From: Limnanthes douglasii subsp. nivea
Lineage: Eukaryota; Streptophyta; Magnoliopsida; Brassicales; Limnanthaceae
Reading direction: 5' to 3'
Assembly (NCBI GenBank): GCA_036936605.1
Contig: JAUPFV010000005.1
Location: forward strand, 121,762,453-121,826,452
Length of the DNA: 64,000 nt
This document shows, in pieces, positions 44,111 to 48,014 of the stretch. The translations under genes were made by a program, and so were the position numbers. Position 1 is the first letter of the stretch. Every line of letters begins with the position of its first letter. The notes under the pieces are model-generated. The model made no database searches. It was given only the letters and a program-made list of their open reading frames with translations, and was not told the DNA's origin.

Positions 44111-45789
44111 ATGGAACCAGGAAATGAGACTGATCCAATAGTTTAAAAAGCAACTGAAACTTTGAGATCTAATTTACGTAGGGAAGAGAGTAAAAAGAAG
44201 ATGATCAAATCCAGTACAACAAGGTCATTCAGATATTGAAGTTCAGATGAATCATTTGTTGGATAAAATAACGACATTAAATGACAAGTATGTTCAAAGA
44301 GAACAACATATTCAATCAGGAAGGCTAAAATCTAAGGTACGACAAGTTGATGAGAAATTTGAGTTGGAAAATAAATATGATCGATCTTACACAGCTCATC
44401 AGACTTGAAGTGATCGGAAGAAAACGTATTTTGAGTCTGATAAAGAACATCGTACTTCTCAAAAAGAAAAGAAAGACAAACACAAGTATATTACACCTAA
44501 GAATGATGAATTTGATAGCTCAGAATCTAATGAAGGATCATCTAAGCAAAAAATGTATCAGGGATCTTCGAAAGGAGAAAAAGGTTTGCCTCGAAAATCA
44601 CGTAAAAATATAAAACAAAAGAGATAATGTGCCTCATTGTTTGAGGGAAACTGAATGGTGTGAAGGGAATACATCTAATTAATACACAGGTGTATCTGAT
44701 CAGAATTTGTACATTGTTATGGGAAGAGGAAGGGATGACCAGTATGTATAAGAAGTAAACTTGAGAAATTCTCCTTTAACAACTGAGATAAGTTCCATTA
44801 CTCTTCTGAGGCGTTTTGATATCTCTAAGGTCAAAAACTTCGATAGGATGCAGGATCCTGATGATCACATCGATCAATTTAAGAACTATATGATGAACTT
44901 CAAAGATGATGATAGGCTGGTTTGCAGAGCTTTTTCTCAAACATTCAAGGACACAACATTGGAGTGGTATAATATAACTACGAGGGAATATATTACCAAC
45001 TTTAGAGATTTCTATACAGCTTTCCGACGACAGTTTGTGGGAAGCAAATAAATGCGTACAAATGGAGATACGATAATACAATGTAAGCAATTTGTTGGAG
45101 AGAAATCGAAAGACTATACGAAGCATTTTATGTTAACAAAAGCAGGATTAGATAATTATGAAGAGGTGGTGGTTATGACTGCATTTCAACAAGGGTTATT
45201 ACTAGGTGATTTGGAAAATGAAAAAAAAGGAGAGCTTTAACTTTTGGAGCTTGTATGGCTCAAGTGGAGGACTAGATTAAAGTGGAAGAATCAACTAGGG
45301 TTCGATGAGATGTTGGACCTAGTCAAAAAAATTTAGGACAAGTGTCAAATCATCAAGGACACTCTTCGAATTATCAGCCACCTCGTCCAAGGAATAATAA
45401 CAATTGGCCTCCTCGAATTGGAGGGTATCTAACTCAAGTTACAGGTTACTAGTTTAAAGATCAAGGCTAAATCAGTAGATTAGGCTAGAGTATTATGCTG
45501 ATTTAGCTGAAAATGTTTATTCAATTTACGAAAAGTTCAAAGGTTATGTAAGTTTTAAAAAGTTAGCTTTAATAAACAGACCAAAAGAAGAGCACAACAA
45601 CAAATTGTGCAAGTAATATAATGATATGGGGCACAACAATTTAGACTGTATAGATTTAAAGAACGAGATACAGGTTTTAACAGCAAATGGCAAGTTTCCT
45701 ACTTTTGTTGAAGGACAAAGACGGGATTGAAAATTCTGAGCGCATCGACACAACAAGTTGCTAACCCGAATTCGAAGGAAGAAAGTTCA
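44111..45789 (+). pseudogene. T3 gag, upstream part
   Basis: ATG 44111 (MEPGNETDPIV), with a charged linker up to 44700. The capsid core is at 44761-45240: LLRRFDISKVKNFDR, QDPDDHIDQFKNYMMNF, RAFSQTFKDTTLEWY, FYTAFRRQFVGSK, and KDYTKHFMLTKAGL. A Tat-type knuckle with NDMGHNNLDC lies at 45605-45660. Stops at 45049 and later. The coding region is interrupted at 45789 by the chimeric element and resumes at 48015 as LMILDSKCDDFDTSSEYLD, which matches the T1 gag C-terminus. Confidence 0.82.
45785..45789. repeat. Left target duplication of the chimeric LTR element
   Basis: GTTCA, identical to 48010-48014. Confidence 0.9.
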
Positions 45790-46151
45790 TGATGTAGCGA
45801 AGACTGCGAACAGACTAGTTTCTTTCCTAGGTATCGGAATCGGGTCAAACGGGTACTTTAATCGAAGATTTCGACGAGCCCATCAGATTTCAACCTGTAG
45901 AGCCTTCGAAAAACAGTTTTAATATTTTAGCATTATTTTATTTATTTATTTTATTTTTAAACATTTATGTAATTTTCCTTATTTGGAATTAGGGTTTTGG
46001 GTCATGCTATATAAAGCATCCTATACCCTATTTTGCCGTCAGACTTTGATTAATTGAATTTTGAGAATTATTATTCTGAGTCTCCTTATTTCTCTAACCT
46101 AGGGTTAGGGTTTTATCGTTGTCTGTTTCTTCTATTTCCGCTTTGCTACCA
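45790..46151 (+). mobile_element. 5' LTR of the chimeric element
   Basis: 362 bp, TGATGTAGCG...GCTACCA. TATA box GCTATATAAAG near 46007. Compared with the 3' LTR it has about 16 substitutions by eye, and it lacks a ~39-bp block present at about 47709-47748. Confidence 0.9.
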
Positions 46152-46154
46152 TAT

Positions 46155-46168
46155 TGGTATCAGAGCCC
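46155..46168 (+). other. Primer binding site of the chimeric element
   Basis: TTGGTATCAGAGCC, three bases after the LTR end: the initiator tRNA-Met complement used by chromoviruses and most copia elements. Confidence 0.85.
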
Positions 46169-46198
46169 AACAATTCCTGCTACGCAGATACAGGAATC

Positions 46199-47611
46199 AT
46201 GTTCCGGGTACCTCTTGATTTGAAGGCTAGAATAGAGAACGACATCTTCAAGTCTACCTGCACAATTGGAAGAAGAATTTACAAATTTATAATTGATTCA
46301 GATATCTATGAGAATCTGATTTCAGAGGAGGCTGTTCAGAAACTAGCGTTGAAGACTGAAGCTCTTCCATACCCATACATACTGTCAACACTGATAGAGT
46401 ACACTGAGGTAACGGTTTCTAAACTGTGTCAAATTGCATTTTCTGTTGGTAATTACAAAGATACAGCATGGTGTGACGTAGTTCCTATGGACGTTTGCCA
46501 TCTAGTTTTAGGAAGTCCATGGCAATTTAAGAGAAATTCTACTTATGATAGTAGAACAAATCGATACAGTTTTGTGAAAGATGGTATCAAGTTTATATTA
46601 GTGTCATCTAGAGTAATGTCTCCAAAACCACCACCAGTTAAGGAGTTTCATGCTCAAATTGCACCAACTGCCGATCTTAGTTGTGATGCTAAAACTGTGT
46701 CTGACTCCGTGTTTGACAAACCAGTCTATGATACAAATATTTTTGAAGATGTATTTGGGTTGGTATTTGACAAACCAGTCTACGATGAGTATGATGATGA
46801 TTGGGATGATGAAGATCTAATTGATATTGAGGAGAAACTTGTAGATCGAGATATTGTCTCAGGCTTCAATACACCAGACTACATCGCTTCAGACCTTCTA
46901 TTGAAGAAGCACTGCAAACTAGCAGATTTTATTGTGGAGATGCATCTTCCAAGTATTTTATGTTATCCTAAAATCAAACCTTTGATTCGGTTTTCGGTGG
47001 ATACATGTTGTCGTATTGGAAAAATGGAAGATGATATTTGTGTGTTTGAGATTATGAATAAATTGATAAAAGAAAAGAATAGTGTTTTAATGGATAAAAG
47101 ACTAGGTTTTGTAATAGAACCTGGAGGATTTTTGTGTGATGGTTGGGGAAATAAAAGAAAGTGTTACAAGTTAAAAATAGAAGATTGCAGTGTTTTGAAT
47201 CTGCTGGCAGATATATACTCTGAAGAACTTGAGAAGCCATGTATTATTCAACAAAGAGGAATTGTTCCTTTCTGCAAGGGTTTTGATGTGATACAACAAG
47301 CACAGTCTGGAACTGGAAAGACAACAACTTTTTGCACGTGCAAAGGTGATGTTGTGCTTAGTAAATGGGTTGAAAAAGCATACATAGAACAAGTGGGTGG
47401 AGTATATCTTCATACTGGTGACCACGGTACTGCTGATGACATGGTAAAGAGGGACAAAGCTGAGAAACCACTTCTTTACAAGAGCTGCAGCATTCGGATT
47501 CTCACCTCTTACACCCTTATCATTGGTGAACACGCCAATGTTTTTACAGTTCTTTCAATGTTTCAGCGTTCCGAATTCGAGGTCGAATTCTTCCCAACCG
47601 GGGAAGGATGA
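46199..47611 (+). CDS. Chimeric ORF: gypsy protease + eIF4A motif I segment + phosphoglycerate mutase segment
   Basis: 470 codons from ATG 46199 (open upstream to TTG 46154 without an ATG). Residues 1-140 are a chromovirus-like aspartic protease (KFIIDSDIYENLISEEAV, CDVVPMDVCHLVLGSPWQF); the catalytic DSG is DSD at 33-35. Residues 140-230 resemble the gypsy protease-RT spacer (VFDKPVYDEYDDDWDDE). Residues 231-327 are unrecognised. Residues 328-379 follow eIF4A through the Q motif and motif I (EKPCIIQQRGIVPFCKG, DVIQQAQSGTGKTTTFC; AQSGTGKT at 368-375). Residues 381-470 follow the C-terminus of plant cofactor-independent phosphoglycerate mutase (IEQVGGVYLHTGDHGTADDM, MVKRDKAEKPLL, ILTSYTL), with metal-ligand-like DH at 408-409. 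The stop TGA is the first three bases of the 3' LTR. Neither host fragment can be active alone. No internal stop despite diverged LTRs. Confidence 0.85.
   Translation: MFRVPLDLKARIENDIFKSTCTIGRRIYKFIIDSDIYENLISEEAVQKLALKTEALPYPYILSTLIEYTEVTVSKLCQIAFSVGNYKDTAWCDVVPMDVCHLVLGSPWQFKRNSTYDSRTNRYSFVKDGIKFILVSSRVMSPKPPPVKEFHAQIAPTADLSCDAKTVSDSVFDKPVYDTNIFEDVFGLVFDKPVYDEYDDDWDDEDLIDIEEKLVDRDIVSGFNTPDYIASDLLLKKHCKLADFIVEMHLPSILCYPKIKPLIRFSVDTCCRIGKMEDDICVFEIMNKLIKEKNSVLMDKRLGFVIEPGGFLCDGWGNKRKCYKLKIEDCSVLNLLADIYSEELEKPCIIQQRGIVPFCKGFDVIQQAQSGTGKTTTFCTCKGDVVLSKWVEKAYIEQVGGVYLHTGDHGTADDMVKRDKAEKPLLYKSCSIRILTSYTLIIGEHANVFTVLSMFQRSEFEVEFFPTGEG
47600..47608 (+). other. Polypurine tract of the chimeric element
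   Basis: GGGGAAGGA directly before the 3' LTR; it also encodes the last residues of the ORF. Confidence 0.75.
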
Positions 47612-48009
47612 TGTAGCGAAGACTGCGAACAGACTGGTTTCTTTCCTAGGTATCGAAATCGGGTCAAACAGGTACTCTAATCGAAGATTTTGATGAGCCC
47701 ATCAGATTTCAAAAATGTGACTTTGTCACTAAGTTTGATACCCAGATTCGACCTGTAGAGCCTTCGAAAACCAGTTTTAATATTTTAGCGTTATTTTATT
47801 TATTTATTTTATTTTCAAACATTTATGTAATTTTCCTTATTTGGAATTAGGGTTTTGGTTCATGCTATATAAAGCATCCTATACCCTATTTTGCCGTCAG
47901 AATTTGATTAATTGAATTTTGAGAATTATTATTCTGAGTCTCCTTATTTCTCTAACATAAGGTTAGGGTTTTATCGTTGTATGTTTCTTCTATTCCCGCT
48001 TCGCTACCA
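47609..48009 (+). mobile_element. 3' LTR of the chimeric element
   Basis: 401 bp, same termini as the 5' LTR, with an additional ~39 bp near 47709-47748. TATA box near 47866. Confidence 0.9.
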
Positions 48010-48014
48010 GTTCA
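48010..48014. repeat. Right target duplication of the chimeric element
   Basis: GTTCA, identical to 45785-45789. Confidence 0.9.

Follow-up and report, generated by a model that had tools for sequence, protein, structure and literature searches.

An LTR retrotransposon of Limnanthes douglasii subsp. nivea with fragments of eIF4A and phosphoglycerate mutase genes, most likely taken up from spliced mRNA

A 64,000-nucleotide stretch of the genome of Limnanthes douglasii subsp. nivea (the window) carries at positions 45790–48009 a long terminal repeat (LTR) retrotransposon of about 2.2 kb, whose open reading frame includes fragments of two host genes, those for the translation factor eIF4A and for cofactor-independent phosphoglycerate mutase (iPGM). 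The element is very probably a non-autonomous LTR retrotransposon, related to gypsy elements by its protease, that acquired exons of three or more host genes from spliced mRNA through template switching in reverse transcription, and then multiplied together with this cargo. Two host-gene captures, eIF4A and phosphoglycerate mutase, had been proposed in the original prediction from the DNA letters, and matching genes of both families are found in the plant's own genome. All positions below are those of the window, and the features of the element are on the forward strand.

The element is an LTR retrotransposon by its LTR ends, target duplication, primer binding site, polypurine tract and dispersed copies with the same ends. 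The 5′ LTR (LTR1; 45790–46151) has 362 bp, with a TATA-like box at 46008, and the 3′ LTR (LTR2; 47609–48009) has 401 bp; both run from TGATG to TACCA. The two differ by 16 substitutions over 362 aligned bases (K 0.046), and 39 bp of LTR2 fall in a gap of LTR1. The primer binding site TGGTATCAGAGCCC (46155–46168), just 3′ of LTR1, presumably matches the 3′ end of the initiator tRNA-Met; the same stretch, with at most one base changed, follows LTR1 in the 24 copies that have two full LTRs. The polypurine tract CGGGGAAGGA (47599–47608) lies directly 5′ of LTR2. The open reading frame (46199–47611, 470 codons) begins at the first ATG found more than 30 bases past the TATA-like box, and its stop is formed by the first bases of LTR2; the chance of a 470-codon open run is 3e-16 by base composition and 4e-10 with codon-position composition. 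The target-site duplication GTTCA stands at 45785–45789 and 48010–48014. The element is nested in an older gypsy copy, and an inverted relative of that copy in the same window represents the empty site: its positions 36800–38700 align straight across the joined flanks of the element (926 of 1432 positions, 65%), so that the insertion and its target duplication are real. The two LTRs, GTTCA, primer site, polypurine tract and 470-codon frame had all been recognized in the original prediction, to which the empty site is added here. The two old gypsy copies are inverted copies of one element (33331–38907, reverse strand; 44225–52062, forward strand), 68–71% alike over aligned pieces, and it is the second that received the insertion. 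Inverted repeats of at least 20 bp were not found in 45400–48500, and neither Rfam nor a tRNA scan gave any match in the window.

The captured eIF4A fragment (47229–47335) holds the motif AQSGTGKT, which we take to be Walker A. At the DNA level it matches a single exon of the host eIF4A gene on contig C223 with 86% identity (92/107 bp), starting 3 bases inside the exon start. A phmmer search of the PDB with this piece gives an E-value of 1e-11, and plant eIF4A proteins are mostly 74–81% identical over 33% of the query. The predicted eIF4A match therefore stands, with its extent now set at the DNA level. A junction segment of 47 bases (47336–47382), present in 15 aligned copies and 3–4 bases shorter in a sister group of copies, leads to the captured iPGM fragment (47383–47518). 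This fragment lies inside one host exon and is 88% identical (120/136) to the host gene on contig C112 and 86% identical (119/138) to that on contig C1, with a PDB match to 3nvl at E 5e-7. When the protein collection was searched with the iPGM piece alone, none of 16 candidates reached E 0.01, and the Metalloenzyme match to Pfam is below threshold (E 0.1). The iPGM match, too, had been predicted, but an extension to residue 470, which a plant sequence had suggested, is rejected: the same tail is carried by an older copy that has no iPGM, and the sequence at 47537–47598 is an element tail common to an older subfamily that has no iPGM at this place. The intervening bases 47519–47536 are an uncertain stretch, the site of 17–18 extra bases in the sister copies that resemble the next iPGM exon. 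The host eIF4A, iPGM and asparagine-synthetase-like genes (the last introduced below) match the elements at the DNA level and lie at separate loci. Divergence from the C112 iPGM gene is low (synonymous, dS, 0.13–0.17; nonsynonymous, dN, 0.12–0.13; dN/dS 0.76–0.95), as compared with a dS of 0.29–0.30 and a dN of 0.12 for the C1 gene, and the gene on C112 is a plausible donor.

Two other interpretations of the captured region were rejected. Amino acids 334–342 were considered as a spliced upstream eIF4A exon, which is unsupported, the stretch being missing from the three older copies seen. The top protein matches (P0001–P0011) looked by score like natural eIF4A-iPGM fusions; scans of nine of them (P0008 and P0010 excepted) revealed eIF4A-type domains in repeated form, and in P0011 an F-box as well, but no iPGM domain. 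Repeated eIF4A-like sequences of 52–63% identity, some with stop-free stretches, also occur in the host genome at C112:245.98–246.33 Mb and on contigs C216 and C520.

Because both pieces lie within single exons, the window copy by itself cannot separate a DNA source from an mRNA source. The relevant evidence comes from related copies. Seven of the 41 long copies compared form the sister group with 17–18 more bases after the iPGM piece. Most of the seven read HTLMLVSI(E/K)IGG or a near variant at this place, and the host C1 protein across the exon junction reads HTLMPVPVAIGG. Over the 27 bases after HTL, all seven agree with the spliced C1 gene at 16–19 positions and with the unspliced gene at 9–11; among windows taken from other host loci, 0–10 of 47,394 match equally well, and within the iPGM locus 0–3 of 2,574 do. 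The C1 gene was used for this test, because the stretch of the closer C112 gene examined did not include the next exon.

A second spliced junction is found in the older subfamily. The host genome was searched for eIF4A with 101 of 1233 candidates scored, and among these 37 of the 102 matches listed end at residues 141–146. Three such places were retrieved (L079–L081). Where they align to the window element, in LTR, protease, linker or tail (not all in each), they are 71–84% identical to it, and their eIF4A piece, longer than that of the window copy, runs from residue 61 to 141–142 and is followed by about 300 bp of another gene. A genome search with the latter piece, in which all 96 candidates were scored, gave 76 matching stretches, including the query's own place and host exons. 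Two neighbouring stretches free of stops belong as exons to a host gene that encodes a GATase_7 domain (E 8e-8), presumably an asparagine synthetase domain-containing protein; Pfam and NCBIfam searches with the piece of the older copy itself returned nothing significant, and its identity is given via the host gene. The host gene has a 499-bp intron. All three older copies join the flanking exons exactly with this intron missing, and 32–35 of 40 bases match the spliced junction as against 11–12 of 40 that match the intron. Since the extra bases of the sister copies fit a spliced iPGM exon junction and the older copies lack the synthetase intron, spliced mRNA is most likely the source of the captured pieces. 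Whether host introns are absent, a check suggested along with the original prediction, has a positive answer in 7/7 sister copies for iPGM and in 3/3 older copies for the third gene.

The older related subfamily, with eIF4A residues 61–142 joined to two spliced synthetase-like exons, is represented by L079–L081 and L084–L086. L079 retains a 3′ LTR and the last part of a 5′ LTR, and L086 has LTR sequence on both sides; as the LTRs of L086 are only 78% alike over about 150 bp, it is considered older than the window's group. LTR matches of L080 and L081 are partial or inverted only. At L088, C1:27498500–27499900, linker-like sequence runs straight into the second synthetase exon with no eIF4A between. 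The iPGM and synthetase pieces occupy the same place in the different subfamilies, between eIF4A and the tail, and the group to which the window copy belongs seems to have replaced the synthetase piece by iPGM. At the eIF4A-to-synthetase switch, the synthetase gene has 8 identical bases (AAGTTCAT) in common with the eIF4A gene on C1 and 9 (GTTCATACT) with that on C334. When the C1 exon is compared with the synthetase exon, ends left out, 8 or more identical bases occur at 0 of 48,645 other position pairs.

The element belongs to a dispersed family. A search of the 1.78-Gb host genome, with 40 of 4157 candidates scored, gave 40 copies, which were compared together with that of the window. Of these 41, 24 have two full LTRs, 14 of them with exact 5-bp duplications, and LTR divergence in the family has a median K of 0.041 (range 0.024–0.057). 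A 41-base pattern across the eIF4A-iPGM junction, entering the junction segment, occurs 127 times genome-wide when up to 3 mismatches are allowed, and its reversed control does not occur. Other copies with the same internal region, as sought in the original prediction, are thus numerous. On contig C223, three junction copies stand in a row at 208.91 Mb and again at 59.41 Mb, spaced 1849–2057 bases, as expected of LTR-sharing arrays.

Selection was examined by comparing changes shared by at least 3 copies with private ones, and the P values are uncorrected. For the eIF4A and iPGM parts of the 41 copies, 28 nonsynonymous (N) and 6 synonymous (S) shared changes stand against N80 and S16 private ones (P 1.0); no protein-level constraint on the captured codons was detected by this comparison. 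The cargo therefore seems to be carried, not used. The protease part gives N15 S11 shared and N143 S43 private changes (P 0.035). The frame is without stops or frameshifts in 11 of the 41 copies, and stops make up 0/62 shared and 26/407 private replacement changes in the 34 main copies (P 0.02), or 1/105 and 29/457 in all 41 (P 0.014). This weak signal hints that copies which still multiply keep their frames open. Over 36 eIF4A codons, the older copies differ from the 41 with a dS of 0.16–0.21 and a dN of 0.16–0.19, and over 82 codons they differ from the host eIF4A gene on C223 with a dS of 0.44–0.62; these values fit a single eIF4A capture followed by evolution without amino-acid constraint.

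The sequences suggest a succession of events. Reverse transcriptase and particles would be supplied in trans by an autonomous gypsy element, spliced host mRNAs would be co-packaged, and the reverse transcriptase would jump onto a host mRNA and back at short matches. The eIF4A piece is placed first because it is common to both subfamilies. An asparagine-synthetase-like mRNA would have come next, in the older subfamily, and in the window's subfamily a later switch would have shortened eIF4A and put iPGM into the slot before the same tail. Several observations weigh against this account. The eIF4A piece lies inside one exon and is uninformative on introns. Its dS is at least 0.62 to all three host eIF4A genes, so that the donor cannot be pinned to a gene, and its dN/dS relative to the C223 gene is 0.14–0.20, which could be read as constraint. 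Since dS and dN are about equal when element copies are compared among themselves, the low ratio is put down to a donor other than C223. The bases of the element that are absent from host eIF4A genes are shared with the older copies at 2 of 6 positions, which is weak support for a single capture. The iPGM junction match of 16–19/27 is not high and depends on the C1 gene rather than the closer C112, and dN/dS relative to the C1 gene is 0.40–0.41. The short matches come from one switch only, at which the third eIF4A gene, on C223, has just 3 consecutive bases in common.

Uptake could also have taken place at the DNA level, if a processed pseudogene of each host mRNA had inserted into, or recombined with, an element copy that was then amplified. 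Such retrocopies would account for the missing introns equally, and the genome contains further iPGM_N matches beyond the two genes used, several with stops. We nonetheless consider this route unlikely: the captured pieces come from within genes and lack gene 3′ ends, the tail and LTR behind them are retained, and at one switch two of the three eIF4A genes have 8–9 identical bases in common with the next gene. Read-through had been offered beside template switching as the mechanism in the original prediction. Transcription from the element into a neighbouring gene, with flanking DNA carried along, is known for plant elements (PMC13317346), yet it would add sequence at an end, and the pieces here sit inside the element before the old tail. 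With the source genes at separate loci and the introns missing as well, read-through transduction is very improbable here, and template switching is the half of that proposal which is favoured.

Two further readings concern the fate of the frame. That the chimeric frame encodes a working protein under selection, as proposed for maize Bs1, would agree with the open frame in 11/41 copies, the fewer stops among shared changes and the protease value, all uncorrected. It appears quite unlikely in view of the equal shared and private patterns in the captured parts, an iPGM dN/dS near 1 relative to C112, and the change from DSG to DSD in the protease. Template switching without use of the cargo, as preferred above, may be extended to an exon cassette carrier, in which successive subfamilies load different spliced host mRNAs into the one slot bounded by a constant eIF4A piece and a constant tail, and in which selection would act only to keep the frame open to the 3′ LTR (for example, sparing the RNA nonsense-mediated decay) and not on content; this extension is tentative, and we would sooner doubt than accept it.

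The remainder of the open reading frame is of the element's own kind, the order being a degenerate Ty3/gypsy protease, family-own sequence, the eIF4A fragment and the iPGM fragment. The remnant of the aspartic protease (amino acids 12–138; 46232–46612) is 55% identical to the plant protein P0121 and matches PF08284 with 20.4 bits (cut-off 20.3). Thirty-eight relatives were found (P0121–P0158), 40–63% identical over aligned parts, 36 of them from genera that we take to be Asteraceae. Amino acids 33–35 are DSD here and DSG in most aligned relatives. No Pfam match to gag, reverse transcriptase or integrase was found in the frame, and the apparent Ty3/gypsy affinity is that of the protease alone. 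The possibility raised earlier, that the segments belong to an ordinary gypsy polyprotein, applies to residues 12–138 and not to the two host segments. The linker and family-own sequence (amino acids 139–343; 46613–47228) gave nothing significant against Pfam or PDB where it was tested. As amino acids 178–285 recur in a stretch beside an older related copy, the region is assigned to the element family. Elsewhere in the window, two frames for PPR proteins are found on the forward strand (22582–24270 and 8398–10782), one with a DYW deaminase domain.

Bs1 of maize is a small element without reverse transcriptase. It is reported to combine fragments of three host genes in one LTR retroelement, fused as a chimeric gene (PMC13317346), and to have captured exons only (PMC4717578). 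The present element resembles Bs1 in having exon fragments of several host genes inside a single LTR element, with the host introns lacking in both, and differs from it in the host genes, the LTR family, the 127 junction copies and the occurrence of two subfamilies that carry different genes at one and the same place. TRIM elements have very short LTRs and no coding frame, in contrast to the 2.2 kb, the LTRs of 362 and 401 bp, the 470-codon frame and the protease remnant found here. They are described as non-autonomous LTR elements that acquire exons (PMC4717578). Pack-MULEs are set apart by terminal inverted repeats, of which none of at least 20 bp was found here, and the Ty3/gypsy elements of Asteraceae and other plants (P0121–P0158) have a similar protease, whereas the frame of this element lacks gag, reverse transcriptase and integrase. 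Gene capture by LTR elements is common in published surveys, with 425 fragment-bearing elements from at least 189 captures in maize (PMC2774510) and 672 genes captured in rice and 1343 in sorghum (PMC3726574). In the maize survey, no element is reported to combine pieces of two or more standard nuclear genes (PMC2774510), as compared with two host genes per element here. By title and the beginning of the abstract, no open-access report of a retrotransposon with eIF4A and phosphoglycerate mutase was found. Host-exon capture by LTR elements is already established, and what is new is a Bs1-like element with serial captures: a plant example, datable from many copies, in which a single LTR lineage acquired three or more host genes, most likely by way of spliced mRNA, and apparently exchanged one captured piece for another. 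With host genes, exon junctions, breakpoints and two successive subfamilies all open to comparison within a single genome, template switching as a model, and what becomes of captured exons, can be tested directly.

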